Assembly (NCBI GenBank): GCA_035574275.1
Contig: DATLYY010000058.1
Coordinates: 1 to 45,579 of the forward strand
Reading direction: 5' to 3'
DNA: 45,579 nucleotides
Origin: Verrucomicrobiia bacterium
Lineage (GTDB): Bacteria > Zixibacteria > MSB-5A5 > DSPP01
In this document: positions 2,133 through 24,414 of the stretch, piece by piece
Numbering within the stretch: position 1 is the stretch's first letter
How the letters are laid out: the number at the start of each line of letters is the position of its first letter
Translations under genes and position numbers: made by a program
Notes under the pieces: model-generated
Databases searched by the model: none
What the model saw: only the letters and a program-made list of their open reading frames with translations
What the model was told of the DNA's origin: nothing

Positions 2133-2960
2133 ATGGGTGTAAAGAGCTATAAGCCGACCACGCCGGGGATCCGGTTCAAGACGGCCTACACCTTTGAGGA
2201 ATTGACCAAGGGGCGGCCGGAAAAATCGCTTCTGGAGTCTTTGCGCAAATCGGGCGGCCGGAACAACAGCGGCCGGGTGACTTCTCGCTACTTGGGGGGC
2301 GGACACCGTCAGGCGTACCGGAAAGTGGATTTTCTCCGCCGGGATAAAGCCGGCATTCCGGCGCGGGTATCGGCCATCGAGTATGACCCGAACCGCACCT
2401 GCCGGATTGCGCTTTTGCATTACGCCGACGGGGAGAAGCGTTATATTTTGGCCCCCGATGGATTGAATGTAGGCGGAACGGTGGCCTCCGGCGACGGCGC
2501 GGATATCGCCACCGGCAACGCGCTGCCCCTTTCCCGTCTCCCGCTCGGCACGGTCGTCCACAACGTGGAACTGAAAGCCGGCAAAGGGGGACAGCTGGCG
2601 CGGGCGGCGGGAGCGATGGTGCAATTGGTCGCCAAGGAGGGGGATTTCGCCCACCTGCGGCTTCCTTCCGGTGAAATCCGGCTCGTCCGGCTGGACAATT
2701 ACGCCACCGTGGGGCAGGTCGGCGTTCTGGATCACGAAAACATTTCGCTCGGCAAAGCGGGGAGGAGCCGCTGGCTGGGGCGGCGACCCCACGTGCGCGG
2801 CGTGGCCAGAAACCCGGTCGACCACCCGATGGGCGGCGGGGAGGGAAAATCCTCCGGCGGGCGGCATCCCTGCAGTCCATGGGGGCAGCTCGCCAAAGGA
2901 TACAAAACGAGGAAAAAGAAAAACCCCTCGGACAAATACATTTTGAGAAGGCGCAAGTAA
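2133..2960 (+). CDS. rplB: 50S ribosomal protein L2
   Basis: 275 residues, normal length. L2 is a core 23S rRNA binder required for subunit association and close to the peptidyl transferase centre. Conserved signatures are present: [20 protein letters not shown] near the N-terminus and [16 protein letters not shown] near residue 225, which holds the histidine implicated in peptidyl transferase function. The basic end KYILRRRK is also conserved. rpsS starts 3 bases after the stop. Confidence 0.98.
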
Positions 2961-2963
2961 AAA

Positions 2964-3359
2964 ATGACCCGTTCGCTTAAAAAGGGCCCCTTTGTGGAGC
3001 CGAAGCTTTTTGAAAAGGTGAAAAAGCTGGCGGAGACCAATGTCAAGACCGTCATCAAAACCTGGGCGCGGCGCTCCACCATCCCGCCGGAGTTCGTCGG
3101 TTTCACCTTCGCCGTGCACAACGGCAACAAGTTCATCCCGGTGTACATCACCGAGAACATGGTCGGCCACAAACTGGGGGAATTCGCCCCCACGCGGACC
3201 TTCCGCGGACATTCCGGCAAGCTTTCCAAAGCGGCGGCGGAAGCGGCCGCGACGGCCGCGGCGCCGGCCCCGGGAGGAAAAGGCGGACCGCGGGGCGGCC
3301 CGGGCGCACCGGCTCCCGCCGCACCGGCCGGCGGTGAAACCAAGAAGGGTGGCGCGTAG
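2964..3359 (+). CDS. rpsS: 30S ribosomal protein S19 with Ala/Gly/Pro-rich tail
   Basis: 131 residues, against about 90 for most S19 proteins. Residues 1-88 are ordinary S19 ([49 protein letters not shown]), a head protein next to S13 and the A-site finger bridge. Residues about 89-131 are a low-complexity Ala/Pro/Gly/Lys tail not found in standard S19. The tail is open, in frame, and ends directly at the rplV start (TAG and GTG share one base), so it is not a misread downstream gene. Confidence 0.96.
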
Positions 3360-3865
3360 TGGAAGCGGTTTCGCGCGCCCGGTTTGTACGGATGTCGGCC
3401 CGCAAAGTCCGCCGTGTGGCGGAATTGGTGCGGGGGAAAAACGTGAACGAGGCGATTGAGATTTTGAATTTCGTCCCCAAGGCGGCGGCGGTCCCCTTGC
3501 AGAAAACGATCAAGTCGGCCGCCTCCAATGTCCTGGCGGAAGAGGGAACCGCGAAGATTCACCCGGAGGATTTGCGCATCAAGACCTTGTTTGTGGACGG
3601 CGGCCCCATCTGGAAGCGCTTCCGGGCGGTTGGCATGGGGCGGGCGTACCGCATCCGCAAGCGAACCTGCCATATCACGGTCGTGGTTGAAGGGGAGCCG
3701 AAAGCCGAAGCGTTGAAGTCCGCGGTGACAAAAACCAAGGCGGCGCCGGCCAAAGAAGAACCCAAAAAAGCGCCGAAAGCAAAAGCGGCTGAAAAACCGG
3801 CGGTTGAGGAAAAAAGAAAAGTGGAAAAGAAAGCCAAAAAAACAACCCGAAAGGCGAAGGAATAA
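3359..3865 (+). CDS. rplV: 50S ribosomal protein L22 with Lys/Ala tail
   Basis: 168 residues; standard L22 is about 110. Residues 1-113 carry the family pattern ([49 protein letters not shown]). L22 lines the exit tunnel and surrounds its mouth. Residues about 114-168 are a Lys/Ala/Glu/Pro-rich extension. The start is GTG sharing a base with the rpsS stop (TAGTG); no later start preserves the conserved N-terminus. The stop overlaps the rpsC start by one base (TAATG). Confidence 0.95.
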
Positions 3866-4743
3866 TGGGGCAGAAAACCCATCCAATCGGATTCCGTCTG
3901 GGGGTCATCCGCTCCTGGAGTTCCAAGTGGTTCACCCGAAAGGGGGCCGCCGGGCTTTTGCAGGAAGACAGTTTGATCCGGCGCTACACCCACCGCCGGC
4001 TGGAAAACGCCGGCATCGCCGAAATCGAGATTCTGCGCTACCCGACCAAGGTCACGGTGAACATCCACACCTCCCGCCCCGGCATCGTCATCGGCCGGAA
4101 AGGGGCGGAAGTGGACAAGCTTAAAGAGGAACTGGCGCTTTTGACCAAAAAAGAAATCACCATCAACATTGTCGAGGTTAAGCGGCCGGAGCTTTCCGCC
4201 CGGCTGACCGGCGAGTCGATTGCCCGGCAGTTGGAGGGGCGCGTCTCCTACCGACGGGCGATGAAAAAAGCGATCGCCCTCACGATGAAGATGGGAGGGG
4301 AGGGAATCAAAATCATCTGCGGCGGGCGTCTTGCGGGCGCGGAGATTGCCCGCACCGAAAAATACATGGAAGGGCGGGTTCCCCTGCACACCCTGCGGGC
4401 GGACATCGATTTCGCCAACTCCACCGCGCACACCACCTACGGAACCATCGGCGTCAAATGCTGGATTTGCCGCGGGGAGGTTCTGGACTGGCAGGGAGCC
4501 GAAGAGCATCGGCCGACCATGCGGGCTGAAGAAGACCGGGGGCGGGGCCGGGATCGTCGTGACGACCGGGATCGGGGCGGGCGCCCTGACAGACGAGGCG
4601 GAGGAGGAGGCCGGGGCCGGGATGGCGGACGCCGGGACGGCCGGCCGCACGGACCGAGAGAACGAACGGCCGGGGCAACTCCTGCCAGGCCGGCCATAGA
4701 AAGCCCCAAGGGGCCTTCGAATTCTGAAGGAGAAAAGTCGTAA
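3865..4743 (+). CDS. rpsC: 30S ribosomal protein S3 with Arg/Gly/Asp-rich tail
   Basis: 292 residues, about 70-80 longer than typical. Residues 1-210 are normal S3: [13 protein letters not shown], the KH-domain loop VIGRKG at 75-80, and the C-terminal domain with [14 protein letters not shown]3 shapes the mRNA entry pore and contributes to its helicase activity. Residues about 215-292 form a strongly charged RG/RD/RGG tail ending in a Pro/Ser stretch, resembling disordered RNA-binding RGG regions. Start and stop each overlap the neighbouring genes by one base (TAATG). Confidence 0.95.
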
Positions 4744-11832: not shown

Positions 11833-12571
11833 ATTGAAATCGAAACGGGAAATAGAAAAAATGCGGGAGGCCGGCCGGATCGTGGCGGAGACCCTCGAGT
11901 TGCTCAAAAAAGAAGTGAAACCGGGGGTGAGAACGAAGGAGCTGGACCGGCTGGCAGAGGCGTTCATCCGTTCCCGCGGGGCTGAGCCGGCCTTCAAGGG
12001 ATACAGAGGGTATCCCGCCTCCATTTGCGTTTCCATCGACGACGAAGTGGTGCACGGCATCCCGGGGGAGCGCGCGATCCGGGAGGGACAGGTCGTTTCG
12101 CTGGATGTGGGCTGCGTGAAAGAGGGGTACTATGCGGATGGGGCCTTTTCCCTGGCGGTCGGCAAAGTGCCGGAGAAAGTGATCCGCCTCTTGCAAATCG
12201 CCGAGGAATCGTTATATTGTGCAATTGATTTTTTTCGGGTGGGAAACCGCCTCGGAGACGTGTCTTCCGCGGTTGAGCGGAAGGTGGAGGAGAATAATTT
12301 TTCGGTCGTGCGGGATCTGGTCGGCCACGGCATTGGCCGGCAGATGCACGAGGAACCGGTCGTGCCGAACTTCGGACAGCCCGGCACGGGAATGGAAATC
12401 AAACCGGGGCTGGTCGTGGCCATCGAACCGATGGTGAATTTAGGCGACTGGCCGGTGGAAACCAAAAAAGACGGCTGGACCATCGTCACCAAAGATGGGG
12501 AAGTCTCCGTTCATTTTGAACACACCGTGGCAGCCACCGAAGAGGGTCCTCTGGTTTTGACGAAGTTATAG
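11825..12571 (+). CDS. map: Methionine aminopeptidase, type I
   Basis: 248 residues from the ATG at 11825; a TTG one codon earlier is the only other choice. It removes the initiator methionine from nascent proteins. The five metal ligands are visible: D94 and D105 (SLDVG, YADGAF), H168 (GHGIG), E201 (IEPM) and E232 (HFEHT). H77 of the DEVVHGIPG motif is the usual substrate-contact histidine. There is no N-terminal zinc or SH3 extension, which fits the short type Ia. It overlaps adk; infA starts 1 base after the stop. Confidence 0.97.
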
Positions 12572-12572
12572 G

Positions 12573-12791
12573 ATGGCGAAAGAGGAGACCATTCAAGTTG
12601 AAGGCAAGGTCATCGAACCCTTGCCGAACGCCATGTTTAGAGTGGAACTGGACAACGGACATCAGGTGCTGGCCCATATTTCCGGAAAGATGCGGATGAA
12701 CTACATCCGCATTCTCCCGGGGGACAAGGTAACCGTGGAGCTTTCCCCCTACGATTTGACCCGTGGGCGGATTGTCTACCGCTACAAGTGA
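12573..12791 (+). CDS. infA: Translation initiation factor IF-1
   Basis: 72 residues, the canonical length. A single S1-type OB fold that occupies the 30S A site during initiation. Sequence markers: [69 protein letters not shown]. Position between map and rpmJ is classical. Confidence 0.98.
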
Positions 12792-12798
12792 GCAAAAA

Positions 12799-12912
12799 AT
12801 GAAAGTGCGTTCGTCGATTAAAGTGCGTTGTGATGCCTGCAAAATCATCCGCCGGAAAGGGCATCTTTTGGTGATTTGCAAAAACCCGCGTCACAAGCAG
12901 AGGCAGGGATAG
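12799..12912 (+). CDS. rpmJ: 50S ribosomal protein L36, zinc type
   Basis: A 37-codon gene too small for ordinary length cut-offs: [17 protein letters not shown], then [20 protein letters not shown]. The zinc ligands of the C+ form are all present (C11, C14, C27, H32). L36 is the smallest ribosomal protein and stabilises 23S rRNA near the L7/L12 base. It begins 7 bases after infA and its stop directly abuts the rpsM ATG. Confidence 0.96.
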
Positions 12913-13299
12913 ATGGCCCGCATCGCCGGCGTCGATTTGCCCAAGGATAAACGGGTGGAAATCGGGTTGCGCTATCTGTTCGGCATCGGCCCGACCACCG
13001 CGCGGCAGATTTTGAAAAAAACGGGGGTCAACCCGGACACCCGGGTCAACGCCCTCTCGGAAGAGGAGATTGCCAAGCTTCGCGCGGTCATCGAGTCCGA
13101 ATACAAGGTGGAAGGGGCCTTGCGGGCGGAAATTTCGCAGAACATCAAACGGCTGGTGGACATCGGTTCCTACCGCGGATTGCGCCACCGCCGGGGTCTT
13201 CCCGTGCGCGGACAACGAACCAAGACCAATGCCCGCACCCGCAAAGGGCCGCGCAAAACGGTCGGCGGAATGAAAAAACCGCCTCCGGGACCCACGTAA
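12913..13299 (+). CDS. rpsM: 30S ribosomal protein S13
   Basis: 128 residues. S13 in the 30S head contacts P-site tRNA and forms bridges B1a/B1b with the large subunit. Markers: [24 protein letters not shown] with helix-hairpin-helix [12 protein letters not shown], and [33 protein letters not shown]. The last residues (MKKPPPGPT) replace the usual lysine tail. The first base follows the rpmJ stop. Confidence 0.97.
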
Positions 13300-13309
13300 A
13301 ACGGGGATC

Positions 13310-13335
13310 AGGGATTAGTAGATTAGGGATTAGTA
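13310..13335 (+). repeat. Short GATTAG-type direct repeat between rpsM and rpsK
   Basis: The 68-base gap between rpsM and rpsK contains two copies of AGGGATTAGTA (13310-13320 and 13325-13335), spaced 15 bases. It is the widest gap inside the alpha operon. A related GATTAG-rich stretch, in opposite orientation, follows cusA at 27589-27620. No function is evident. Confidence 0.6.
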
Positions 13336-13367
13336 AAGACAACGACAAGGACAATAGTGGAGTTTAG

Positions 13368-13760
13368 ATGGCGGAAGAGGTAAAAAAGAAACCAAAGAAA
13401 AGGCAGCGCCGGATCGAGGGGATTTGCGTGGCCCACGTGAAGGCGACCTTCAACAACACGATCGTCACCATCACCGACCCCTCCGGGGCGGTTTTGTGCG
13501 CCTCGTCGGCCGGGAAGAACGGCTTCAAGGGGTCCAAAAAATCGACCCCCTTCGCCGCCCAGGTGGCGGCGGAAGCGGCCGCCCGTGAAGCGCTCGAAGT
13601 GGGTGTGAAGAAGGTGGAAGTTTGGGTGAAGGGCCCGGGCGCGGGCCGGGAAGCGGCGATCCGCTCGCTGGCCGCGACCGGTCTGGAAGTCCTGGCCATC
13701 AAGGACGTGAGCCCGCTGCCCCACAACGGCTGCCGGCCGCCGAAACGGAGAAGGGTGTAA
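13368..13760 (+). CDS. rpsK: 30S ribosomal protein S11
   Basis: 130 residues. S11 lies on the 30S platform at the E site beside S18/S21. Markers: [48 protein letters not shown] and [46 protein letters not shown], an almost consensus C-terminus. A GTGGAG about nine bases upstream of the ATG is the probable ribosome binding site. Confidence 0.98.
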
Positions 13761-13784
13761 TTTGAACCGAATGAGGGAATTCCA

Positions 13785-14423
13785 ATGGCGCGTTATGTAG
13801 GACCTTCCTGCCGCTTCTGCCGCCGGGAAGGGGAGAAACTTTTCTTGAAGGGAACCCGCTGTTTTTCGGACAAGTGCGCCTTTGAGCGGCGCGGCTATTC
13901 CCCCGGCGAGCACGGCGCCTCCAAGGGGGGCGGCCGACGCAAGAGTTCGGAATACGGCCAGCAGCTGCGCGAGAAGCAGAAAGTGCGCCGGCTGTACGGC
14001 CTTTTGGAAACCCAGTTTCACAATATGTTCGAGCGGGCCGACCGGATGAAGGGGATCACCGGCGAAAATCTTTTGATGCTTCTGGAATGCCGGCTGGACA
14101 ATGTGGTGTACCGGCTGGGCTTCGCCCCTTCGCGCAAGGCGGCGCGCCAACTGGTGCGCCACCGCCATTTCACCGTCGGCGGAAAGGTGGTGGATATTCC
14201 CTCCTATCAGGTGAAACCGAGAGACGTTATCCGGGTGCGGGAGGAAAGCCGCAATCTGGACATTATCCACCAGGCCCTGAAGGAACAGGGGCGGGAGCTG
14301 GCGCTTCCCTATCTGCGGCTGGACAAAGCCCGGTTGGAAGGGGAGCTTCTGGATAACCCGAAACGCTCCGAGATTCCGACTTTGTGCTCGGAACAAATGA
14401 TCGTCGAGCTGTATTCAAAATAA
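13785..14423 (+). CDS. rpsD: 30S ribosomal protein S4, cysteine-containing form
   Basis: 212 residues. S4 nucleates 30S assembly and in many bacteria controls the alpha operon. The N-terminus has CRFC then CFSDKC (C9, C12, C26, C31 region), the zinc-binding S4 type. The S4 RNA-binding domain is present (LECRLDNVVYRLGFAPSRKAARQLVRHRHFTVGGKVVDIPSYQVKPRDVIRV). Three zinc-type small proteins (S4, S14, L36) occur in this operon, so zinc-independent versions are not used here. Confidence 0.97.
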   Translation: MARYVGPSCRFCRREGEKLFLKGTRCFSDKCAFERRGYSPGEHGASKGGGRRKSSEYGQQLREKQKVRRLYGLLETQFHNMFERADRMKGITGENLLMLLECRLDNVVYRLGFAPSRKAARQLVRHRHFTVGGKVVDIPSYQVKPRDVIRVREESRNLDIIHQALKEQGRELALPYLRLDKARLEGELLDNPKRSEIPTLCSEQMIVELYSK

Positions 14424-14443
14424 AGAAAGAGGAGAAGCCTTTG

Positions 14444-15421
14444 ATGAAGTGGAAAAGCATACAGATGCCCCGGGGCGTGGAGGCCGCCGAGGCCTCCAAG
14501 ACGTACGGCCGTTTCGTTCTGGAGCCGTTGGAGCGGGGATTCGGCATCACGCTCGGGAATGCGCTGCGGCGGGTTTTGCTCTCCTCCATTCAGGGATCGG
14601 CGATCACCGCCGTACGCTTTGAAGGGGTTTTGCACGAATTCTCCACGATTCCGGGCGTATACCAGGACGTGACGGAAATCTGTTTGAACTTGAAGAAAGT
14701 CCGGCTTAAACTGGCGGGCGAAGCGCCCAAAATGATGCATTTGAAAGCGGCTAAAAAAGGGAAACTCACCGCCGCCAACATTGAAACCGGCGGGGACGTC
14801 GAAATTTTGAACCCCGACCAGTTCATCTGTGAACTGACCGAGGAGACCAAGTTTTCCGCCGAGCTGGAAGTCGGCTTCGGCCGCGGCTACCTCCCGGCCG
14901 AGCAGAACAAGCGCCCCGGTGCGCCGGTCGGCACGATTTTTTTGGATTCCCTTTTCTCCCCCGTGTACAAGGTCAATTACCAGATTGAAAACACCCGGCT
15001 GGGACAGCGGGTGGATTACGAGCGTTTGATTATGGAAATCTGGACGGATGGCGGCGTGACGGCGGAGGAGGCCTTGAGCCACGCCGGGCAGATTTTGAAC
15101 GACCACCTTTCGGTTCTGATAAAAACCGACCGTCCCGTCCAAATGGCGGAGGAAAGCGAGCTGGACGAGGAGACCGCGCGGATGCGCAATCTTTTGAAAA
15201 CCCGCGTGGAAGAGCTGGAACTTTCGGTCCGTTCGGCCAACTGCCTGCGGGCGGCCGGCATCGAGACGTTGGGGGATTTGGTGCGCCGTTCCGAGCCGGA
15301 GATGCTGGAGTTCCGCAATTTCGGCCGCAAGTCCTTGACCGAACTGCACGAGGTTTTGGGGGATTTGGGGCTTTCCTTCGGGATGGATATCTCCCGTTAT
15401 TTTCCGGAGGGGAATAATTGA
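14444..15421 (+). CDS. rpoA: RNA polymerase subunit alpha
   Basis: 325 residues from the ATG at 14444, preceded by an AGAGGAGAAG ribosome binding site. The frame is open to 14384 but that start would overlap rpsD and has no site. The N-terminal dimerisation domain is recognisable by LEPLERGFGITLGNALRRVLLSS. The C-terminal domain (from about residue 245) by LELSVRSANCLRAAGIETLGDLVRRSEPEMLEFRNFGRKSLTEL, the helix pair that binds UP elements and activators. Its TGA lies within the TTG start of rplQ. Confidence 0.98.
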   Translation: MKWKSIQMPRGVEAAEASKTYGRFVLEPLERGFGITLGNALRRVLLSSIQGSAITAVRFEGVLHEFSTIPGVYQDVTEICLNLKKVRLKLAGEAPKMMHLKAAKKGKLTAANIETGGDVEILNPDQFICELTEETKFSAELEVGFGRGYLPAEQNKRPGAPVGTIFLDSLFSPVYKVNYQIENTRLGQRVDYERLIMEIWTDGGVTAEEALSHAGQILNDHLSVLIKTDRPVQMAEESELDEETARMRNLLKTRVEELELSVRSANCLRAAGIETLGDLVRRSEPEMLEFRNFGRKSLTELHEVLGDLGLSFGMDISRYFPEGNN

Positions 15422-15939
15422 AGCACGGCAGAAATTTGCCAAAGCTGGGGCGCAAATCAGCCCACCGGGACGCCATGCTTTCGAACATGGCCGCCAGCTT
15501 GATTTTGCATCACCGGATCGTCACCACCAAGCAGAAGGCGCGGGCTTTGGCCCCCTTTGTGGACCGGCTGATTCAAACCGCCAAGAACGGGAAGAAATCC
15601 CTTTCCGCCCGGCGTCTGGTAGCGCGGCAGTTGTACTCCCCGGAGGCGGTCCAGAAACTTTTTGACGACACCGCCCCCAAAATGTCCGACCGGGAGGGGG
15701 GCTACACCCGGATTTACCGTCTCGGGCGCCGGGCTGGCGACGGGGCGGAGACGGCCGTGGTTACCATCGGAATGGCGACGATAAAGGTCGACAAAAAAGA
15801 GAAAAAAGAAGCCAAGAAGCATAAAGGGGAGCGTCCCGCCGGTTACGACCGGACCAAGGACGAAGAAATCTTTTTGGAAAAAGCGGCGGCCAAGTCCAAA
15901 ACCGCCGAAGAGCCGGCCGAAGAAGCCAAGACCTCATAG
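15418..15939 (+). CDS. rplQ: 50S ribosomal protein L17 with charged tail (TTG start)
   Basis: 173 residues; core L17 is about 118-120. The core runs MKHGRNLPKLGRKSAHRDAMLSNMAASLILHHRIVTTKQKARAL to GGYTRIYRLGRRAGDGAETAVVTI. L17 is placed near the exit tunnel on the solvent side. Residues about 121-173 are a Lys/Glu/Ala tail. The start is a TTG overlapping the rpoA stop (TTGA); the family's conserved first residues follow immediately, so it is secure. No terminator follows; the next gene starts 19 bases later. Confidence 0.96.
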   Translation: MKHGRNLPKLGRKSAHRDAMLSNMAASLILHHRIVTTKQKARALAPFVDRLIQTAKNGKKSLSARRLVARQLYSPEAVQKLFDDTAPKMSDREGGYTRIYRLGRRAGDGAETAVVTIGMATIKVDKKEKKEAKKHKGERPAGYDRTKDEEIFLEKAAAKSKTAEEPAEEAKTS

Positions 15940-15958
15940 CACCGAAATTTTCCTTTAA

Positions 15959-16384
15959 ATGAACCAGCTTCCCGAAAGCGGAGCGCCCAAGCCCAAAAAA
16001 GCGCTGCCGAAGGGTTGTTTAATTGCCTTGATTATTGGCGGCATCCTGCTCGTTTTGCTTGTTGCCGCGGTCGCGCTTTTCTACGTGTACCGCGGGGAGA
16101 TTTTGAACTGGGGCATCCTGCAGTCCACGACGCAGATGGAGCGGGTTTTAATCCAGCGGGCCGGGCCCGGTTATGATTCCACCCGTATTCAGTCCCTCTT
16201 TGACGAATACCGCCGGGCCGGGAAGGAGGGGCGGATCTCTTTGGACAGCATGCGCAACTTAAGCTTCTATTTGAGTTGGGTGGCGGACACCTCCAAACCG
16301 CTCGACACGGCCGACGTCTCCCAGATTTTGGCCAACTTCAAAGCTGCTATTCTTTCCGCCCCCGACCCGCGCCTTGAAAAGTAA
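15959..16384 (+). CDS. Hypothetical single-pass membrane protein
   Basis: 141 residues, not recognised. Residues 1-18 are polar with Pro/Lys, residues about 19-44 form one strong transmembrane helix (CLIALIIGGILLVLLVAAVALFYV), and the remaining hundred residues are a soluble, mostly helical region predicted outside the cytoplasm if the Lys-rich start stays inside. It begins 19 bases after rplQ and its TAA overlaps the deoB ATG (TAATG), so it is translated within the same operon. No catalytic motif is visible. Confidence 0.8.
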   Translation: MNQLPESGAPKPKKALPKGCLIALIIGGILLVLLVAAVALFYVYRGEILNWGILQSTTQMERVLIQRAGPGYDSTRIQSLFDEYRRAGKEGRISLDSMRNLSFYLSWVADTSKPLDTADVSQILANFKAAILSAPDPRLEK

Positions 16385-17556
16385 TGCGGGTAGTCACGAT
16401 TGTTCTGGACTCCTGCGGGGTCGGAGAACTCCCGGACGCTAAAGAATACGGCGATGAGGGTTCCAACACGCTCGGGAATTTATCCAAAGCGGTTGGAGGA
16501 TTGCGTCTCCCCAATTTGGAACGTCTGGGGCTTGGCAAGATAATTCCGATTGCGGGTGTTCGCGGCGACGTTGCTGCGCTGGGTGCCTACGGAAAGATGA
16601 GCGCTGTATCGGCAGGGAAGGATTCCACCAACGGGCACTGGGAGCTGATGGGCGTCGCCGTTTCCCAACCCTTACCGCTTTTTCCTGATGGTTTTCCAGC
16701 GGAGATAATGCGAGAGTTCGAACGGGTCTCCGGCCGCGGCTGGCTGGGAAACAAAGCCGCTTCTGGCACCGAAATCATCGAGGAGTTGGGGGAAGAGCAC
16801 GTTGCCACCGGAAAGCCCATCGTTTACACCTCGGCCGATTCCGTTTTTCAAATCGCCGCCCATGAAAAAGTTGTTCTCTTGGATGAACTGTATCGCATCT
16901 GCGCTGAAATGCGTAAGATTTTGACCGGGGCGTGGGGCGTCGGGCGGGTGATTGCCCGCCCGTTCGTTGGAGATTCCCGCGAAAACTTCAAACGCACGGC
17001 CAACCGGAAGGATTTCTCGCTCCCTTGTCCCGAAGAAAACGTTCTGGACTTGCTCCACTCCTCCGGTATTCCCACGGTTGGGATCGGTAAAATCGGTGAC
17101 CTCTTTGCCGAGCGGGGACTTTTCAAAATCGCCCACACCAAAAGCAACCGGGACGGGATGGAAAAGCTGTACGAAGAGCTCGCCGTGACGCGCAACGGCT
17201 TCATTTTCATCAACCTGGTGGATTTCGACACCCTCTGGGGGCACCGCAACGACGCCGCCGGATTCGCCGGCGGACTGGAGGAATTCGACCGGTTGCTTTC
17301 CGGTTTGGATCAGCGCTTCCGCAAAGAGGACGTCGTCTTCATCACCGCCGACCACGGCTGCGACCCGACCACCCCCTCCACCGATCACTCGCGGGAGTAC
17401 GTTCCGCTTTTAATCTATGGCGCAAACGTCAAACCAAACATACATTTGGGGACGCGCCCTTCGATGGCCGATTTGGGCGCGACGATAGCGGAGCTTTTTG
17501 GATTGAAATGGAAAGGAAGGGGAGAAAGCGTTGCCCAAAAAATCCTGGCCCAATGA
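16384..17556 (+). CDS. deoB: Phosphopentomutase
   Basis: 390 residues, the normal length. It interconverts (deoxy)ribose 1-phosphate and 5-phosphate, feeding sugar from nucleosides into central metabolism. The alkaline-phosphatase-type metal sites are visible: VLDSCGVGELPDA at the N-terminus, SAGKDSTNGHWELMG around residue 75, NLVDFDTLWGHRND, and TADHGCDPTTPSTDHSREYVPLL near residue 330. It overlaps the upstream gene by one base and cdd by 26 bases. Confidence 0.97.
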   Translation: MRVVTIVLDSCGVGELPDAKEYGDEGSNTLGNLSKAVGGLRLPNLERLGLGKIIPIAGVRGDVAALGAYGKMSAVSAGKDSTNGHWELMGVAVSQPLPLFPDGFPAEIMREFERVSGRGWLGNKAASGTEIIEELGEEHVATGKPIVYTSADSVFQIAAHEKVVLLDELYRICAEMRKILTGAWGVGRVIARPFVGDSRENFKRTANRKDFSLPCPEENVLDLLHSSGIPTVGIGKIGDLFAERGLFKIAHTKSNRDGMEKLYEELAVTRNGFIFINLVDFDTLWGHRNDAAGFAGGLEEFDRLLSGLDQRFRKEDVVFITADHGCDPTTPSTDHSREYVPLLIYGANVKPNIHLGTRPSMADLGATIAELFGLKWKGRGESVAQKILAQ

Positions 17557-17932
17557 GAAGCTGATTGCCGCCGCAAAAAAAGCCCAGCAAAACTCCTACT
17601 CGCCGTACTCCAAATTTGCCGTCGGCTGCGCCATTCTGGGCGAAGACCGTGCGGTTTATTCCGGAACGAACGTTGAAAACGGTTCCTACGGGCTTGCCAT
17701 CTGCGCCGAGCGCGCGGCGGTCTTTGCCGCCGTATCCGCCGGCTGCCGAAAGTTTGTCGCGGCCGCCGTCGCCGCAAACTCCGAGGGTTTTCCCCAGCCC
17801 TGCGGCGCCTGTTTGCAGGTTTTGTCCGAATTCTCCCTAAAACTCCCCATTGTTCTGGTCAACCGGGAGGGGCTCTTGAAGGAAACTTCCCTCGAAAAGC
17901 TTCTACCTTTACCCTTTCGCCCGGGAAGTTAA
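17531..17932 (+). CDS. cdd: Cytidine deaminase (TTG start)
   Basis: 133 residues, the short homotetrameric type. It deaminates cytidine and deoxycytidine to uridine and deoxyuridine. Zinc site: C58-A-E60 with the catalytic glutamate, and P-C91-G-A-C94. The N-terminal substrate motif SYSPYSKFAVG is intact. The start is the TTG at 17531, 26 bases inside deoB; the following residues fit the family start and no other start preserves them. The stop TAA abuts the deoC GTG. Confidence 0.95.
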   Translation: MPKKSWPNEKLIAAAKKAQQNSYSPYSKFAVGCAILGEDRAVYSGTNVENGSYGLAICAERAAVFAAVSAGCRKFVAAAVAANSEGFPQPCGACLQVLSEFSLKLPIVLVNREGLLKETSLEKLLPLPFRPGS

Positions 17933-18757
17933 GTGGCGGATCTCGAGGTTCTGGAGCCCGGGCGGCTTTCCCGGCTGGTGGGGCATTGCGACGAAGAGTG
18001 GCAATCCGTTCTGCAAACTTTAAAAAAAGAGGAGATTTGGCGGCAAAAACGGAGCGTCCGCCAAAAAGCCAAATCGCCGGAAAGCTACGTTCGCGTGGTG
18101 GAGGAATTGACCAAAGAAACGGCGGCGGAAAAACTGGAATCGACCAATTTGGATTTCAAAGCAACCGGCGCGGAGATAGAAAAGCTTTGCCACGAAGCGG
18201 TGGAAAATAAAATCGGCGCGGTATGCGTTTCCCCCCTTTGGACTTCCTTTGCCGCCGCCCTGGTCGGCACCAAGGCCCGCGTCGTTTCCACCCTCGATTT
18301 TCCTCTGGGTCAAAACAAGCTTTCCGTCAAAATCAAGCAGGCCTTGGAGGCCTGCCAGGATGGCGCTTCCGAAGTGGATATGGTTGCCAACCATTCCTAT
18401 CTTTCCGATGGAAAGTTAGCCGAGTTCTTCTGCGAAATTTTCGAGATAAAAAATGCGCTGTGGGAAGGGGTGGGTCTCAAGGTGATTCTGGAGTTCGCCC
18501 TGCTTTCCACCGAGCAGAAAATCCTCGGTGCCTTGGGCGCTTTTTACGCTGGGGCAGATTGGATTAAAACCTCCACGGGCGTTCTGGCCAAAACCGCCGG
18601 GGAGGACGTCGAGCTGCTTTTCCGTATCTTCGGTCCGTCGTTTCCCATCAAAGCGGCCGGCGGAATCCGCACCCGAAGGGAGTTGGAAACACTCTACGAG
18701 GTGGGAGCAGAGCGCTTCGGCGCCTCAACCGCAGTCGCCATTTTGAAAGAATTCTGA
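17933..18757 (+). CDS. deoC: Deoxyribose-phosphate aldolase (GTG start)
   Basis: 274 residues; the TIM-barrel core is about 220, so there is an extra charged N-terminal region of about 50 residues. It splits 2-deoxyribose 5-phosphate into acetaldehyde and glyceraldehyde 3-phosphate. The Schiff-base lysine is expected at K183 (GLKVILE) and the second active-site lysine at K212 (WIKTSTG). VCVSPLWTS and AAGGIRT are also family motifs. GTG starts right at the cdd stop, and it overlaps pdp by one base (TGATG). Confidence 0.95.
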   Translation: MADLEVLEPGRLSRLVGHCDEEWQSVLQTLKKEEIWRQKRSVRQKAKSPESYVRVVEELTKETAAEKLESTNLDFKATGAEIEKLCHEAVENKIGAVCVSPLWTSFAAALVGTKARVVSTLDFPLGQNKLSVKIKQALEACQDGASEVDMVANHSYLSDGKLAEFFCEIFEIKNALWEGVGLKVILEFALLSTEQKILGALGAFYAGADWIKTSTGVLAKTAGEDVELLFRIFGPSFPIKAAGGIRTRRELETLYEVGAERFGASTAVAILKEF

Positions 18758-20058
18758 TGTTTTTGACCGCCGAAATCATCGCCAAAAAACGGGACGGAAA
18801 GCGTCTGTCCGAGGAGGAAATCTCCTTCCTCGTCTCCGAATTCACCGGCGGCTCCATTCCGGACTATCAAATGGCCGCTTTTTTGATGGCCGCCTTCATC
18901 CGCGGGCTTGATAGGCGCGAAACCTCGTCGTTGACCAAGGCGATGCTGGAATCCGGCCGCCAATTTGATTTGTCCTCGATATCCGCTCCCAAGGTGGACA
19001 AGCACTCCACCGGCGGCGTGGGGGACAAGGTCTCGCTCGTTCTGGCCCCTTGGGTCGCCTCCTGCGGGGTCGCGGTGCCGATGATTTCCGGCCGGGGACT
19101 GGGGCACACGGGGGGAACTTTGGACAAGCTTTCCGCCATTCCCGGTTTCCGCACCGATTTTTCCGTGGAGCAGTTCACCGAGATTTTGCAAGCCAATAAT
19201 TTCTTTATGGCCGGGCAGACCGTGGAAATCGCCCCGGCGGACAAAAAAATCTACGCCCTGCGGGACGTGACCGGCACGGTGCCTTCCATCCCGTTCATCA
19301 CCGCCTCCATTTTGAGCAAAAAACTGGCGGGCGGGGCGGAGGCGATTCTGTTCGATGTCAAAGTCGGGCGCGGCGCCTTTATGCGCACGCCCAAGGAGGC
19401 AAAGGAACTGGCCGCTTGGCTTTGTGCCGTGGCGCGGCAGTTTGGCGTCAAGGCAGAGGCCGTCCTTACCCGGATGGACGAACCGCTCGGCCGCTTTGTC
19501 GGGAATGTTCTGGAAGTGAAGGAAGCGCTCGAATTTCTCTCCGGCCGTTTTGAGGCGGATTTGTATCAGGTCACGGAATATTTGGCCGTGCGGATGCTTG
19601 GTCTGGCTGGAATCGATGTCAAGGAGGCCCGACGGCTGCTCTCCGCCCGGCTTCTGGACGGCTCTGCCCGCCAGCATTTCCGCGAACTCGTCCGCCGGCA
19701 GGGCGGCTTTGTCGGTGCGGTGGAAAACCCCGGTTTATTTGCCCGCGCCGAATACCAAATCCCCGTGCGCGCCCCGCGCGCGGGCTGGATTTGGACTTTG
19801 GACGCCCGGGAAGTGGGACTTTTGGCCATCGAACTGGGGGCCGGGCGCAAAACGGTTCACGATAAAATCGACTACACGGTCGGCTTCGAGTTTTTGAAAA
19901 AAACCGGCGCGCAGGTGGAAAAGGACGAGAATCTGGCCTTTGTCTATTCCAACAGCACCGTCACTGGCAGGGAAGTGGCCCTGGAACTCTCCCAACTCTA
20001 CGACATCCGCCGAGAAAAGAAAAAAGCGCCTGGATTGATTTTAAAGAGCCGAATTTAA
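18757..20058 (+). CDS. pdp: Pyrimidine-nucleoside / thymidine phosphorylase
   Basis: 433 residues. It phosphorolyses thymidine and probably uridine or deoxyuridine to base plus (deoxy)ribose 1-phosphate. Family markers: DYQMAAFLMAAFIRGL near residue 30, the phosphate site KVDKHSTGGVGDKVSLVLAP near 77-96, and SGRGLGHTGGTLDKLSAIPG. The choice between thymidine phosphorylase (deoA) and pyrimidine-nucleoside phosphorylase (pdp) cannot be made from sequence alone; the length fits Pdp. It ends the long plus-strand gene string and converges on the next gene with a 4-base gap, leaving no room for a terminator between them. Confidence 0.93.
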   Translation: MFLTAEIIAKKRDGKRLSEEEISFLVSEFTGGSIPDYQMAAFLMAAFIRGLDRRETSSLTKAMLESGRQFDLSSISAPKVDKHSTGGVGDKVSLVLAPWVASCGVAVPMISGRGLGHTGGTLDKLSAIPGFRTDFSVEQFTEILQANNFFMAGQTVEIAPADKKIYALRDVTGTVPSIPFITASILSKKLAGGAEAILFDVKVGRGAFMRTPKEAKELAAWLCAVARQFGVKAEAVLTRMDEPLGRFVGNVLEVKEALEFLSGRFEADLYQVTEYLAVRMLGLAGIDVKEARRLLSARLLDGSARQHFRELVRRQGGFVGAVENPGLFARAEYQIPVRAPRAGWIWTLDAREVGLLAIELGAGRKTVHDKIDYTVGFEFLKKTGAQVEKDENLAFVYSNSTVTGREVALELSQLYDIRREKKKAPGLILKSRI

Positions 20059-20062
20059 TCCT

Positions 20063-21046
20063 TTACTTTAAAAACTTCATATCAGCAGTAAGCCCAAACT
20101 GTAAATTCAGCTTTGACACCTGCTGGATGCCGTTTACCTTTTGATAAACCGGTATCTGGGCGTAGCTGTAGGCCGAAAGGGTATGGTTGATGTGGAAGCT
20201 CAACCCAGGACTGGCGAATATCCAGTTACCGCCAGTGTTGGAGCGAAGCTCGCCGGTTGTGCCCGCATCCGCAAAATCCTGCCACTTTCCATTCACTTGA
20301 AGTAAAAACGACAGGCGAGAAAGCATTTGATATTCTGTCCCCAAATGCGCCAAAACCTGATTGCCAAATTTGTAGTCGTCGGCTCCTTTGCCATTTAGTC
20401 GATAGCCTATTCCCACATTCAAGGGCAGTTTGCTATGAAGCCCGCCGGACAAACTTGAAACGGTAAACAGCGGGACTTGCAGATTGGCGCCGAAGATTCC
20501 ATCCCAGGAACCGGTGCCGGGCTGAATGGTCACCTCGGCATGTTCTCCCTCGTCGTTTTCCGCACTGGTCAACCCGGTAGGGGTTTTTATTCCAGCAAAA
20601 AAATCGAGCCGGGCGGGGGAAATCACCGAGCCAAAATCGAAGCCATACTGCCCGGTAACGCTCAAATCCCCAAAACCTTCAAAGTTGAAAGTTTCGATCG
20701 TGCTGTCTTCAATATGGCTGTGTTCGCGGATAATGTAGGGAAGCTCGACTTTTATCCCGAAGTTGTTGGAAACCCCGTACTGCGTCTGCAAAAGCGTCCG
20801 CTGGTTTATCGTTTTCACCTCGTCGTGGGGATTGGGCAAAGCCCCCACATACGATTTTTTTGAGCCGATGTAAATCCGGTTTTGGTTTATATATTCGTGG
20901 CTTAAGGTAAGATGCAGCCGCCCGGCATGGACGCTTTTATGCAAATCGAGCGGGCAAATGGACGCCCCGCAACTGGCTTCCAGATTTTCTATAAAAAACA
21001 CGTACGCTACAGATACGGATCCGAGCAGTAGTAACCGTTTTACCAC
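20063..21046 (-). CDS. Secreted outer-membrane beta-barrel protein
   Basis: 327 residues from the GTG at 21046. The start gives a signal peptide (VKRLLLLGSVSVAYVFF). The rest is made of alternating amphipathic strands with frequent Gly and aromatic residues, ends in a phenylalanine-containing strand (FGLTADMKFLK), and resembles transporter-like barrels of the phenol-degradation MetA class, an assignment by style only. The frame is open much further upstream, but those starts would cross the palindrome at 21139 and put the signal peptide inside. It is divergent from the metal efflux operon and may share its control. Confidence 0.75.
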   Translation of the reverse strand: MVKRLLLLGSVSVAYVFFIENLEASCGASICPLDLHKSVHAGRLHLTLSHEYINQNRIYIGSKKSYVGALPNPHDEVKTINQRTLLQTQYGVSNNFGIKVELPYIIREHSHIEDSTIETFNFEGFGDLSVTGQYGFDFGSVISPARLDFFAGIKTPTGLTSAENDEGEHAEVTIQPGTGSWDGIFGANLQVPLFTVSSLSGGLHSKLPLNVGIGYRLNGKGADDYKFGNQVLAHLGTEYQMLSRLSFLLQVNGKWQDFADAGTTGELRSNTGGNWIFASPGLSFHINHTLSAYSYAQIPVYQKVNGIQQVSKLNLQFGLTADMKFLK

Positions 21047-21052
21047 GTTTCT

Positions 21053-21081
21053 TATGTAAGAAATGATAATTTCTTTGTCAA
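21053..21081 (-). promoter_or_regulatory. Predicted promoter of the barrel gene
   Basis: On the minus strand a perfect TTGACA (21081-21076) is followed after 17 bases by TACATA (21058-21053). The expected start point falls at about 21046, which is the GTG of the gene, so the transcript would have almost no leader. Confidence 0.55.
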
Positions 21082-21138
21082 ATTGTTTCCCCAGCGGTTT
21101 GCGGGCGGTGATGACAAGTGCAGGATTTGATTTTTCAC

Positions 21139-21156
21139 TTGTAGCATTTGCTACAA
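21139..21156. promoter_or_regulatory. Perfect 18-bp palindrome, putative operator
   Basis: TTGTAGCATTTGCTACAA: two 8-base arms with a 2-base centre, in the divergent region between the barrel gene and the cusC-like gene. A second, overlapping inverted pair exists: ACAAGTG (21114-21120) and CACTTGT (21136-21142). A TTGACA lies at 21164-21169, but no good -10 follows it at normal spacing; TTGCTA (21148-21153) with GATAGT (21171-21176) is a possible weak promoter covering half of the palindrome. The matching regulator is not encoded nearby. Confidence 0.6.
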
Positions 21157-21239
21157 CGACCACTTGACATGATAGTCGTAACTTATTGTCAGGCAATAAG
21201 AACGCACGTCGGCAAGGGCATTGCTTTAGGGGGTGTGGG

Positions 21240-22517
21240 ATGAAAGGTTTGTTTCTGATGGCCCACTTAACGGTGATTCTCCTCGCGCTTCCTGCAACTG
21301 CCCAAGAGGTATTGACTCTGCAGGATTTTCTGGCCAAGGTTGAAAAAAACAACCCCGAAATTCTGGCCGGGCAAAAGCAGGTGGCCTCCAAAGAAGCGAT
21401 GCGCAAAGCGGCCGGGGCTTGGGAAGACCCGATGGGAATGTTCGGGGTTGAACGGATGCCCACCACCTATCCGGCTCCCGGCTCCTCCAGCATTTTCGTG
21501 GAGGATGAATTGTACGCCAAAAATATCGGCATAAGCCAAAAGCTCCCTTTTTTTGGCACGCTGCGGCAGCGGAAAAAAATTGCCGGGCAGGAAAAGAGGG
21601 AAGCGGAATTCGGCCTATTGGCAACCCGTTTGGGAAAGCAAGCCGAGGCGAAAAAAGCATACTACGAATGGGCTCGGCTTCAAAAAGACCGCCAGCTTCT
21701 GGAGCGGGCCTATCTGGTCTGGGAAAAACTGGTCGCTTTAACCCAAGTCGCCTATGCCAAGGCACAGGGGGAACACCACTCCTACTTGCGGGCGCAGGTG
21801 GAACTGGTAAAAGTGGAGGCGGAAAAGCTGGAAAATACCGAAGCGCTCAAGCAGATTGCCGCCCGGCTCGATTTTTTGGCGGGGGAAGTGCTTGCCGCAG
21901 AAAACTTGGCCGCCGAGCCGCTGTCACCAAACGCCGAGGGGGGCTTGATTCTGGATTCTGCTCTGTGGCTGGCTGCGAAATACAATCCGGAAATCCAGAT
22001 GCTTGCGGCTGCCGAAGAGCGGGTGCGCTTTGAAAAGAATCTCGCCGCCAAAGGATATTTTCCCGATTTGGAGTTGAGCTTGTACCGCGACCAGCAGATT
22101 GACCACGCCATGCCGAGCCGGTTGATGAATGTCTATGGCGGGAGCGTCTCCTTCCGGCTCCCTTTCTTCTTTTGGACAACCCGTTCGAAGGAGGTGCAGG
22201 GGAAAAGTTTGGAAATTCAGCAGACGGCCTCTTTGAAAAAAAACAGAGAAAATCAAATCCGGGCCGAGGTGGAGGCGATTTGGGCCGAAATCGAGCGGTT
22301 GGAAAAACTTGTCCGATTGTACAACAATGAGCTTCTGCCCCGCGCCCAGCTTTTGGTGGAGGAAGGGCAGACCGCCTACACAGTCGGGCGGCTCTCCTTT
22401 CCCGATTTTTCGGAAGCCCAACTGGAGCAAATCGAACTGGAGCGGAAATATTACAGCTTGCTGGCGCAATACTGGACGGCCCGTGCCGAACTGGAAAAAA
22501 CAATCGGTTTGAATTAA
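21240..22517 (+). CDS. Outer-membrane efflux protein, CusC/TolC family
   Basis: 425 residues from the ATG at 21240, which has TAGGGGG eight bases upstream; the open frame to 21186 lacks such a site. A signal peptide covers residues 1-20 (cut near LPATAQ). Two repeats of the outer membrane efflux domain follow, starting LTLQDFLAKVEKNNPEILAGQKQV and ending in long coiled-coil helices, the shape of the periplasmic tunnel. Together with the CusB- and CusA-like products it would complete a pump from periplasm or cytoplasm to the outside. Confidence 0.9.
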   Translation: MKGLFLMAHLTVILLALPATAQEVLTLQDFLAKVEKNNPEILAGQKQVASKEAMRKAAGAWEDPMGMFGVERMPTTYPAPGSSSIFVEDELYAKNIGISQKLPFFGTLRQRKKIAGQEKREAEFGLLATRLGKQAEAKKAYYEWARLQKDRQLLERAYLVWEKLVALTQVAYAKAQGEHHSYLRAQVELVKVEAEKLENTEALKQIAARLDFLAGEVLAAENLAAEPLSPNAEGGLILDSALWLAAKYNPEIQMLAAAEERVRFEKNLAAKGYFPDLELSLYRDQQIDHAMPSRLMNVYGGSVSFRLPFFFWTTRSKEVQGKSLEIQQTASLKKNRENQIRAEVEAIWAEIERLEKLVRLYNNELLPRAQLLVEEGQTAYTVGRLSFPDFSEAQLEQIELERKYYSLLAQYWTARAELEKTIGLN

Positions 22518-22532
22518 ACGAAAGGAGAAGCA

Positions 22533-22982
22533 ATGAAGAAAGCAACAATTATCCTCATCGTGTTGGCTTTGGGGGCATTTGCACTGGCGGGCTGTGGCAA
22601 GAAGAATGAAAGCCCGCCGCAGACGGAATCTTCCGGTACGGAAATGGTGAATGCCGCGGCCTACACCTGCTCCATGCATCCGGAGGTGATTTCCGCCGGG
22701 CCGGGCAAATGCAATATCTGCGGAATGAATCTGGAGGAGAAGAACGCCGCCGAGTTGAGCGGCGTAAAATACGCCTATGTCTGTCCGATGAATGACCAGA
22801 CCGGACTGCCTGCCGCGCCCGGAAAATGCGACAAATGCGGGATGGACTTGGTGAAAACCGGTTTGGCGACGAACTTTGTTTGCCCCATGCATCCGGAGCA
22901 GGTCGGTTCCACAGCCGGAAAATGCGCCGTCTGCGGGATGGAGATGAAGGCGGATACGGCCTTTCTGGAAAACAAAAGTTAG
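22533..22982 (+). CDS. Lipoprotein with three heavy-metal-binding domains
   Basis: 149 residues. The signal ends in the lipobox LAGC (C21). Three heavy-metal-binding (HMBD) modules follow, each with the pattern Y/F-x-C-x-M-H-P then G-K-C-x-x-C-G-M: about residues 44-68, 82-106 and 115-140. The second has CPMND in place of CSMHP, losing the histidine. Cys, Met and His are soft-metal ligands, so a role in capturing or handing over Cu(I)/Ag(I) to the pump, like CusF in other bacteria, is inferred. A strong AAAGGAGAAG lies upstream. Confidence 0.88.
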   Translation: MKKATIILIVLALGAFALAGCGKKNESPPQTESSGTEMVNAAAYTCSMHPEVISAGPGKCNICGMNLEEKNAAELSGVKYAYVCPMNDQTGLPAAPGKCDKCGMDLVKTGLATNFVCPMHPEQVGSTAGKCAVCGMEMKADTAFLENKS

Positions 22983-22991
22983 GAAGAATGG

Positions 22992-24377
22992 ATGAGGTAT
23001 TTTCTTAAAATCGCGCCGTTTTTATTCCTGTTCGCTTCCGGTTTCCTTATTGGTTTTAACGGATGCAAAGGGAAGAAGGCACCGCCCGTTGGTGAAGTCC
23101 GCACCAAGGAAATCTACACCTGCCCGATGCATCCGGAAATCGTGCGGGATAAGCCGGGGAACTGTCCCATTTGCGGTATGAACTTGGAGAAAAAGACGAT
23201 TGCCGAAACGCTTTCAGTCGTCTCTCCATCCGCCGGACAGAAGGATGACTACACCTGTTCCATGCACCCGGCCGTTTCTTCCGACAAGCCGGGGGCCTGC
23301 CCGGTCTGCGGCATGGTTCTGGAAAAGCGGAGCGGGCTTTTTGCCAGCTCGGCCCAGGCCGCCGAAGAGAAATTCAAGCTCGCCCTCCCGGCGGACAAGC
23401 AGGTGCTGGCTAACGTCGCCACGACCAAGGCGGGAGTGCGCCGGCTGGAACGCTCCATTCTAACCGTCGGCACCGTGGAAGCGAGCGAACAAAGGCTCTA
23501 CCGCGTCCCCAGCCGGGTGCCGGGACGAATCGAGAAGCTTTTTGTCGATTACACGGGGGCTTTCGTCAACAAGGGGGATCCCCTTTTCATCATCTACTCC
23601 CCCGAGCTGGTGACCGCCCAAAAGGAGTATTTGCTGCACGTTCCGAAGGGTGGAATGCCGGGAATGGGGGAATCCCCTCTGGACACCGGGTTTCTGGCCG
23701 CCGCGCGGGAGCGGCTGTTGCTCTGGGGGCTTACGCCGGACCAGCTGGCCGCGATCGAAAGCGGCGACACCATCTACACCCGGTTGACCATCTACTCCCC
23801 CCGGGCCGGGATTGTCGCCGCCAAAAACAAGCTGGCGGGGAGCTATGTGACGGAAGGGGAGATCGTGTATGACATCGCCGACTTGTCGGCGGTCTGGGTT
23901 TGGGCGGAGATTTATGAGTACGAAATCGCGGGCGTTACGGTCGGCACACCGGTTTCGGTGAGTACTCCCGCCTATCCGGGAAAGAGGTTTTCAGGCCGCG
24001 TCTCGTTTGTTTCGCCGGAGGTGAACAAGGAATCCCGCACCATCCGGGTACGCGCCGAGCTGGAAAATCCCGATTTGCATTTGAAGCCGGGGATGTACGT
24101 AGACGTGGACATCAAAGTGCAAACCGGCAAGCCGGTTTTGGCCGTTCCGGCATCCGCCGTTCTGCAGACCGGCAATCGGCAAATCATCTGGGTCAAAGTC
24201 GGGCCGACTGTTTTTGAGCCGCGCGCTGTTGCACTCGGCGTCCGGGGCGGGGACTGGTGGGAAGTGCTCTCCGGCGTTCACGAAGGGGAGGAGGTGGTCT
24301 CCTCCGGAGGATATTTGCTTGACTCGGAGGCGCAGTTCCGGCTGGGAAAACCGGCCTCCGGGCACGGGGGGCATTAG
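22992..24377 (+). CDS. cusB: RND membrane-fusion protein, CusB type, with two HMBDs
   Basis: 461 residues. A hydrophobic N-terminal segment (8-24) precedes C25; the lipobox is imperfect (FNGC), so either a lipoprotein or an anchored protein. Two heavy-metal-binding modules occupy about 42-66 and 87-111 (CPMHP...CPICGM and CSMHP...CPVCGM). Then comes the adaptor: beta-barrel and lipoyl halves (VPGRIEKLFVDYTGAFVNKGDPLF, SPRAGIVAAKNKLAGSYVTEGE) and the YEYEIAGVTVGTPVSVSTPAYPGKRFSGRVSFV segment. It links the inner-membrane pump to the outer-membrane channel. Confidence 0.92.
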   Translation: MRYFLKIAPFLFLFASGFLIGFNGCKGKKAPPVGEVRTKEIYTCPMHPEIVRDKPGNCPICGMNLEKKTIAETLSVVSPSAGQKDDYTCSMHPAVSSDKPGACPVCGMVLEKRSGLFASSAQAAEEKFKLALPADKQVLANVATTKAGVRRLERSILTVGTVEASEQRLYRVPSRVPGRIEKLFVDYTGAFVNKGDPLFIIYSPELVTAQKEYLLHVPKGGMPGMGESPLDTGFLAAARERLLLWGLTPDQLAAIESGDTIYTRLTIYSPRAGIVAAKNKLAGSYVTEGEIVYDIADLSAVWVWAEIYEYEIAGVTVGTPVSVSTPAYPGKRFSGRVSFVSPEVNKESRTIRVRAELENPDLHLKPGMYVDVDIKVQTGKPVLAVPASAVLQTGNRQIIWVKVGPTVFEPRAVALGVRGGDWWEVLSGVHEGEEVVSSGGYLLDSEAQFRLGKPASGHGGH

Positions 24378-24414
24378 CAGTTTCAATAATTCAATTGACG
24401 ATTGAAAAACCTTT

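Follow-up and report, generated by a model that had tools for sequence, protein, structure and literature searches.

The window analysed here, i.e. the whole 45,579-nucleotide stretch of contig DATLYY010000058.1 (assembly GCA_035574275.1), derives from a draft genome of the phylum Zixiibacteriota (2.51 Mb, 79 contigs, 99.9% complete) and carries the S10-spc-alpha genes on one strand from its start through rpoA and rplQ (apart from these two, the ribosomal genes were named by eye from their translations). Behind rplQ, on the same strand, follow a gene for a one-helix membrane protein (denoted TMp) and four adjacent deo-type genes for the catabolism of pyrimidine nucleosides, namely deoB, cdd, deoC and pdp (Table 1), and the subject of our analysis is the relation of this cluster to the ribosomal genes. 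The phylum was judged from named relatives: when named genomes were scanned with aligned RpoA sequences, the four best hits (L072-L075) were all records of Zixibacteria / Candidatus Zixiibacteriota. A first-pass annotation, made from the sequence alone, had described the cluster as nucleoside salvage genes attached to the end of the ribosomal superoperon. The gene identities, strand, gaps and overlaps that it gave agree with ours: DeoB, Cdd, DeoC and Pdp all score above the curated cut-offs of their equivalog or subfamily models, and the nearest solved structures carry the same names. The genes are tightly packed, in that the TTG start of rplQ lies inside the stop of rpoA (an overlap of 4 bases), TMp and deoB meet in TAATG, deoB and cdd overlap by 26 bases, cdd directly abuts deoC, and deoC and pdp meet in TGATG. 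A comparison of 14000-21500 with Rfam found nothing, even when E values up to 1 were allowed.

Table 1. Features around the rplQ-deo junction of the window, and the related Ignavibacteriota loci
Feature	Position	Strand	Remarks
rpoA, RNA polymerase alpha	14384-15421	+	NCBIfam, 418 bits; GTG start, ATG at 14441 more likely
rplQ, L17 with charged C-terminal tail	15418-15939	+	TIGR00059, 116 bits (cut-off 70); TTG start
rplQ/TMp gap, 19 bases	15940-15958	+	without terminator; weakly conserved relative to the sister genome
TMp, single-helix membrane protein, 141 aa	15959-16384	+	profile family 3' of rplQ
deoB, phosphopentomutase	16384-17556	+	506 bits (cut-off 256); best PDB match 3m8w, 387 bits
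cdd, cytidine deaminase	17531-17932	+	TIGR01354, 137 bits (cut-off 114); TTG start; best PDB match 1jtk
deoC, deoxyribose-phosphate aldolase	17933-18757	+	TIGR00126, 166 bits (cut-off 117); GTG start; best PDB match 3r12
pdp, pyrimidine-nucleoside phosphorylase	18757-20058	+	TIGR02644, 532 bits (cut-off 409); best PDB match 7m7k
Ignavibacteriota: EngB-like GTPase, membrane protein and deoB	L082 2057-5737; L111 11560-15290; L134 11567-15297	one strand	named by eye

Conservation of the gene order and of TMp

Within the phylum 132 genomes were searched. A deoB that scores over the cut-off is present in 86 of them (G037 has none), and in 83 of the 86 rplQ was detected as well. Whether the order recurs in relatives had been left by the first-pass annotation to be looked up, and it is indeed kept: in 24 of the 83 genomes, a count from which contig ends may conceal some linkages, and in 9 of the 15 families that have both genes, deoB stands directly behind rplQ, sharing its strand and at a distance of 139-698 bases from the L17 match. 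The fetched loci of families f2, f4, f5, f11 and f14 have the order rplQ-deoB-cdd-(deoC)-pdp, and those of f1, i.e. the window's genus, represented by the window's genome (G000) and a sister genome (G001, locus L032), have the same order with TMp added behind rplQ. The fetched f3 loci read rplQ-TMp-deoB-(cdd)-deoC without a detected pdp, and those of f15 read rplQ-TMp-deoB without the other deo genes. Exceptions are L042 (f4), where no cdd was called, and the f10 locus, which is cut by a contig end. Linkage is found in none of the 56 genomes of f9, f12, f13, f16, f18 and f19, and G010, G031 and G036 have all four deo genes grouped elsewhere in the genome. Although the draft state of the source genome might raise the thought of an assembly artefact or of mere chance, the same order in the second genome of the genus, in nine families and in the single-contig genomes G002 and G018 makes this extremely improbable, and its recurrence rules out chance adjacency as such.

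In 14 of 19 linked loci (f2, f3, f4, f5, f11 and f14) the cluster is closed by a convergent open reading frame (ORF) of 687-731 residues, three of which we read by eye as class A penicillin-binding protein (PBP1A). In the window a minus-strand gene ends at 20063, four bases past pdp; the region 20063-24400 holds a convergent gene for a possible outer-membrane protein and then apparent metal-efflux genes (TolC-like, heavy-metal-binding repeats, CusB-like; all by eye).

The history of the linkage was traced on two trees. In a tree of RpoA plus RplQ (59 rows, leaving out L040, L159, L167 and L168; L072 is labelled unlinked, though its contig stops 77 bases past rplQ), the deepest-branching group within the class consists of two linked families, f3 and f15. 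Family f1 falls in an open fork at the root of a clade whose other members are unlinked, and a third clade is mixed. In a tree of DeoB (leaving out L039) the families stay together, with linked and unlinked members mixed within f10, f11 and f14. On each tree 7 changes of the linked label are needed, versus means of 18.3 and 16.6, respectively, for shuffled labels. Given the placement of f3, f15 and f1 and the pattern in the DeoB tree, the simplest reading is that the rplQ-deoB linkage would be ancestral, with one gain followed by several losses. A search of the literature, at the level of titles and the openings of abstracts, yielded nothing on nucleoside genes 3' of rplQ.

TMp itself matches no Pfam or NCBIfam family at E 0.001, and a comparison of 17 members with Pfam at E up to 0.1 gave scattered, mostly single hits from which no name was gained. 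A profile started from the TMp of the window nevertheless gathered relatives that lie nearly always behind rplQ. Matches at E 0.001 were obtained in 79 genomes; after four genomes with weak matches (G008, G033, G045 and G125) were dropped, 75 with a strong match (E <1e-14) remained, in 68 of which TMp is found on the same strand, at most 2.5 kb behind rplQ (2 of the others have no detected rplQ and 5 have TMp elsewhere). Profile comparison also matches the small membrane-protein ORFs that follow rplQ in f3 and f15 to the TMp family (probability 93%, E 3.6e-7). The order rplQ-TMp-deoB, as present in f1, f3 and f15, is thus probably the ancestral one, f2, f4, f5, f11 and f14 having probably lost TMp later; from this place in f9, f18 and f19 the deo part has probably disappeared or been relocated.

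The members of TMp (window, L032, L062, L063, L065, L073, L152, L155-L157, L162-L167, L169 and L171) make up a fast-evolving family of one-helix membrane proteins. At L062 (f9; 2139-4660) rplQ and TMp are followed by a different housekeeping set, i.e. apparent plsY, gpsA and a MerR-type regulator (by eye), and at L063 (f18) and L065 (f19) ORFs of similar sizes to those in L062 stand behind TMp.

Transcription signals behind rplQ

The gaps behind rplQ in linked relatives contain compact GC hairpins followed by T-runs. These were scored with a strict rule for intrinsic terminators (a single hairpin of at most 34 bases and at most -9 kcal/mol, with at least 5 T in the next 6 bases, within 120 bases of the rplQ stop) in 53 loci, 24 linked and 29 unlinked; the unlinked ones are a selected sample in which families lacking deoB are also represented. 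A terminator is present 3' of rplQ in 43 of the 53: in 17 of the linked loci (0.35 expected from shuffles) and in 26 of the unlinked ones (0.7 expected); under a looser rule 22 and 27, respectively, are positive (6.6 and 5.0 expected). The strict rule does not fire everywhere, as its yield behind other genes makes clear (rpoA 0/24, deoB 0/23, cdd 2/17, deoC 0/12, pdp 0/13; the two hits behind cdd are those of L032 and L034). Among named loci, 51 of 74 have a terminator behind rplQ, including L075, which is probably the same record as L050 and no independent case. As a terminator behind rplQ is the common state, the conserved neighbourhood by itself does not imply a shared transcript.

The loci without a strict hit are the window, L032, L035, L041, L042, L045, L046, L069, L158 and L169; with the looser rule, a good hairpin does appear in L035, L041, L042 and L169. 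In L045 and L046, a pair from f5, deoB is directly next after rplQ; L069 and L158 belong to f13. At L073, a basal Zixiibacteriota record in which no deo genes were found, TMp overlaps rplQ by 4 bases and there is no terminator.

For the window, the claim of the first-pass annotation that no terminator separates rplQ from deoB holds for intrinsic terminators: a strict search of the plus strand over 15880-16409 was empty, and likewise no convincing promoter was found between the two genes in this genome. Over 15881-20300 the plus strand yields one weak best hit, inside pdp (~18847-18879), and none was found 3' of pdp (20040-20200). A scan of both strands with a simple pattern (12000-24000) gave 26 terminator-like hits versus 22.2 in shuffles; some plus-strand hits fall in the stretch at issue, with the overall count at chance level. 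The RNA fold at the rplQ/TMp junction is no better than that of shuffles (z -0.19), and no convincing promoter was seen in the rplQ tail, the gap or TMp. Under a looser terminator rule both f1 genomes gave hits, but these fall within the TMp coding sequence and have weak T-runs; 8 of 20 shuffles of each sequence passed as well, so these hits were discarded and the strict rule was adopted. In 13 linked loci that have no TMp, the best sigma-70-like sites between rplQ and deoB are on average no better than shuffles (mean rank 0.41), and nothing is claimed from the individually good-looking TTTACA-17-TAGATT (L033) and TTTACA-17-TAAATT (L047).

Both f1 genomes lack a strict terminator 3' of rplQ, which we count as one event. 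Their rplQ/TMp gaps of 19 (G000) and 18 (G001) bases are poorly conserved between the two species, and no clear dip in synonymous change is seen across rplQ and TMp. At convergent 3' ends elsewhere in the genus the strict rule does find terminators (13/62 in G000, 1.7 expected; 5/44 in G001, 0.7 expected). The counts for G002 (0/22), G018 (3/42) and G003 (1/36) are low, which means that the rule detects only a fraction of gene ends. The median co-directional gap is 16 and 15 bases in the two genomes of the genus versus 59, 58 and 37 in G002, G018 and G003. Since gaps are this short throughout the genus, compaction may have removed the terminator, and with a gap of 18-19 bases and the terminator gone, read-through is plausible there.

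Joint transcription does not extend to the 17 of 24 linked loci where a terminator intervenes, so that the gene order can persist independently of it. The deo cluster might also be a separate, independently regulated unit in the window, transcribed from a promoter inside rplQ or TMp and kept apart by a stop behind rplQ that is weak or depends on Rho; its place next to the ribosomal genes would then only be inherited. The terminators kept by most relatives examined, the intact cluster elsewhere in G010, G031 and G036, which can apparently work alone, and the difference in codon usage between most ribosomal genes and deoB, cdd and deoC (see below) would fit such a unit; however, the genus has neither an intrinsic terminator nor a convincing promoter nor a conserved spacer, the overlapping genes leave little room, and a clear drop in synonymous change between G000 and G001 is absent. 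We regard a separate unit as a possibility of limited likelihood.

Codon usage and metabolic role

Expression level was approached through codon adaptation to the ribosomal set, expressed as percentiles against a background of 237 ORFs called by length alone. The ribosomal cluster scores high (rplQ 90, rpoA 93, secY 89), and its passengers adk (90) and map (79) look codon-adapted, whereas most deo genes do not; pdp reaches the 72nd percentile. A second codon measure gives percentiles of 87 for rplQ, 47 for TMp, 35 for deoB, 30 for cdd, 35 for deoC and 65 for pdp. The comparison is indirect, as single ribosomal genes span the 64th-100th percentile. With deoB, cdd and deoC near the genome median, expression equal to that of the ribosomal proteins is not indicated, and the codon usage would fit weak or recent read-through better than full co-expression.

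By the established chemistry of their families, Cdd converts cytidine to uridine, Pdp splits uridine or thymidine into the base and (deoxy)ribose-1-phosphate, DeoB shifts the phosphate and DeoC splits deoxyribose-5-phosphate. The DeoC of the window has an N-terminal extension of ~56 residues ahead of the aldolase domain (17933-18100). Compared with the sister genome, the frame of this extension has synonymous changes, as expected of coding sequence. A small separate ORF stands ahead of deoC in some loci of f3 and f11.

In G000 (99.9% complete) the only three importer families searched (PF07662, PF02608 and PF03825) gave no match, uridine kinase (Udk) gave none either, and uracil phosphoribosyltransferase (Upp) is represented by 21.7 bits over 64 positions, against a cut-off of 208. 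Among 14 control genomes the same searches were positive in 4, 6, 4, 12 (Udk) and 14 (Upp), respectively. A route from salvaged pyrimidines to nucleotides by uridine kinase or uracil phosphoribosyltransferase was thus not found in the genome, and the 'salvage' label of the first-pass annotation fits poorly. In view of these negatives, the deo set most likely serves to recover pentose from internally released nucleosides, i.e. in catabolism more than in salvage.

That nucleoside turnover has been tied to ribosome synthesis by selection, so as to recycle the products of RNA decay with growth rate, is a proposal of the first-pass annotation to which we assign a low probability. The missing terminator and tight spacing in both genomes of the genus are in line with it, as are the negative results for the three importer families and for Udk, and the lack of an Upp above its cut-off; against it, a terminator intervenes in most linked relatives, the codon usage is ordinary, and the genus-wide short gaps could explain the loss without selection for co-expression. 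Somewhat less doubtful, though still unlikely, is that loss of an ancient terminator fused the deo unit to the main ribosomal transcript, so that the recovery of pentose from decay of the cell's RNA and DNA would follow ribosome synthesis; the cell would then be one that seemingly manages without three common importer families, without uridine kinase and without uracil phosphoribosyltransferase.

Relation between the ribosomal and deo units

The reading that we consider probable is that of an ancestral neighbourhood of a ribosomal and a deo unit, from which the terminator was lost in the window's genus, with read-through there. In this scenario deoB-cdd-deoC-pdp, with the small membrane-protein gene in front, would be the ancestral neighbour of the 3' end of the S10-spc-alpha cluster. 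In most lineages the computed intrinsic terminator behind rplQ would end the ribosomal transcript, and the deo genes would form a unit of their own with a putative separate promoter. In the window's genus the spacer measures 18-19 bases, the intrinsic terminator is missing, and rpoA through pdp are chained together by short gaps and by stops that overlap the next start. Ribosomal transcripts would there read through into the deo genes, which, judging by codon usage, would be expressed at a lower level than the ribosomal genes. From cytidine and uridine the deo set would yield uracil and ribose-5-phosphate, and from deoxynucleosides the base, glyceraldehyde-3-phosphate and acetaldehyde; since none of the three importer families tested was found, these substrates would mostly arise inside the cell, through turnover of RNA and DNA. 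Joint expression in the window's genome is therefore plausible, as a prediction from sequence.

Several observations weigh against this reading. With respect to ancestry, the deep branches of the RpoA plus RplQ tree are moderately supported (89/88, 90/79); the tree splits f1 from f2 (G002), though the taxonomy lists both under the same order; the DeoB tree has a different deep order (f12 with f11 and f14; f19 apart from f9 and f18); and the losses and gains are not fixed in number, the counts of changes being unable to separate them. With respect to termination, most linked relatives keep a terminator between rplQ and the deo genes, and f1 is not unique in its absence, given that the linked f5 loci L045 and L046 also have none that was detected (nor have the f13 loci L069 and L158). 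A promoter within rplQ or TMp may exist, even if the best promoter-like site in TMp is equalled or beaten by 15% of shuffles, and a Rho-type stop would leave no hairpin. Finally, the codon adaptation percentiles of TMp (51), deoB (43), cdd (43) and deoC (50) are ordinary, and the importer negatives cover three families only.

The locus may provide a traceable example of operon growth, in which a phylum-wide neighbourhood with a terminator has apparently become fused in one genus upon loss of the spacer; if transcripts confirm this, it would place central nucleoside catabolism under ribosomal control. The analysis also brings to light a small, uncharacterised membrane-protein family that stays behind rplQ.

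Three known arrangements invite comparison. In Ignavibacteriota a same-strand deoB lies ~2.6 kb behind rplQ in three named loci, in the order rplQ, EngB-like GTPase, large membrane protein, deoB. Unlike the window, these have two intervening genes and a terminator behind rplQ (3/3), and cdd, deoC and pdp were not found there. With the deo operons proper, i.e. deoCABD in E. coli and dra-nupC-pdp and drm in B. subtilis, the window shares the phosphopentomutase, aldolase, pyrimidine phosphorylase and cytidine deaminase types, but its cluster is without a purine phosphorylase or importer gene and sits behind rplQ. With the S10-spc-alpha cluster, finally, it shares the ribosomal genes on one strand up to rpoA-rplQ, and it differs in that TMp and four nucleoside-catabolic genes are added without an intrinsic terminator, whereas most of the scanned loci terminate behind rplQ.

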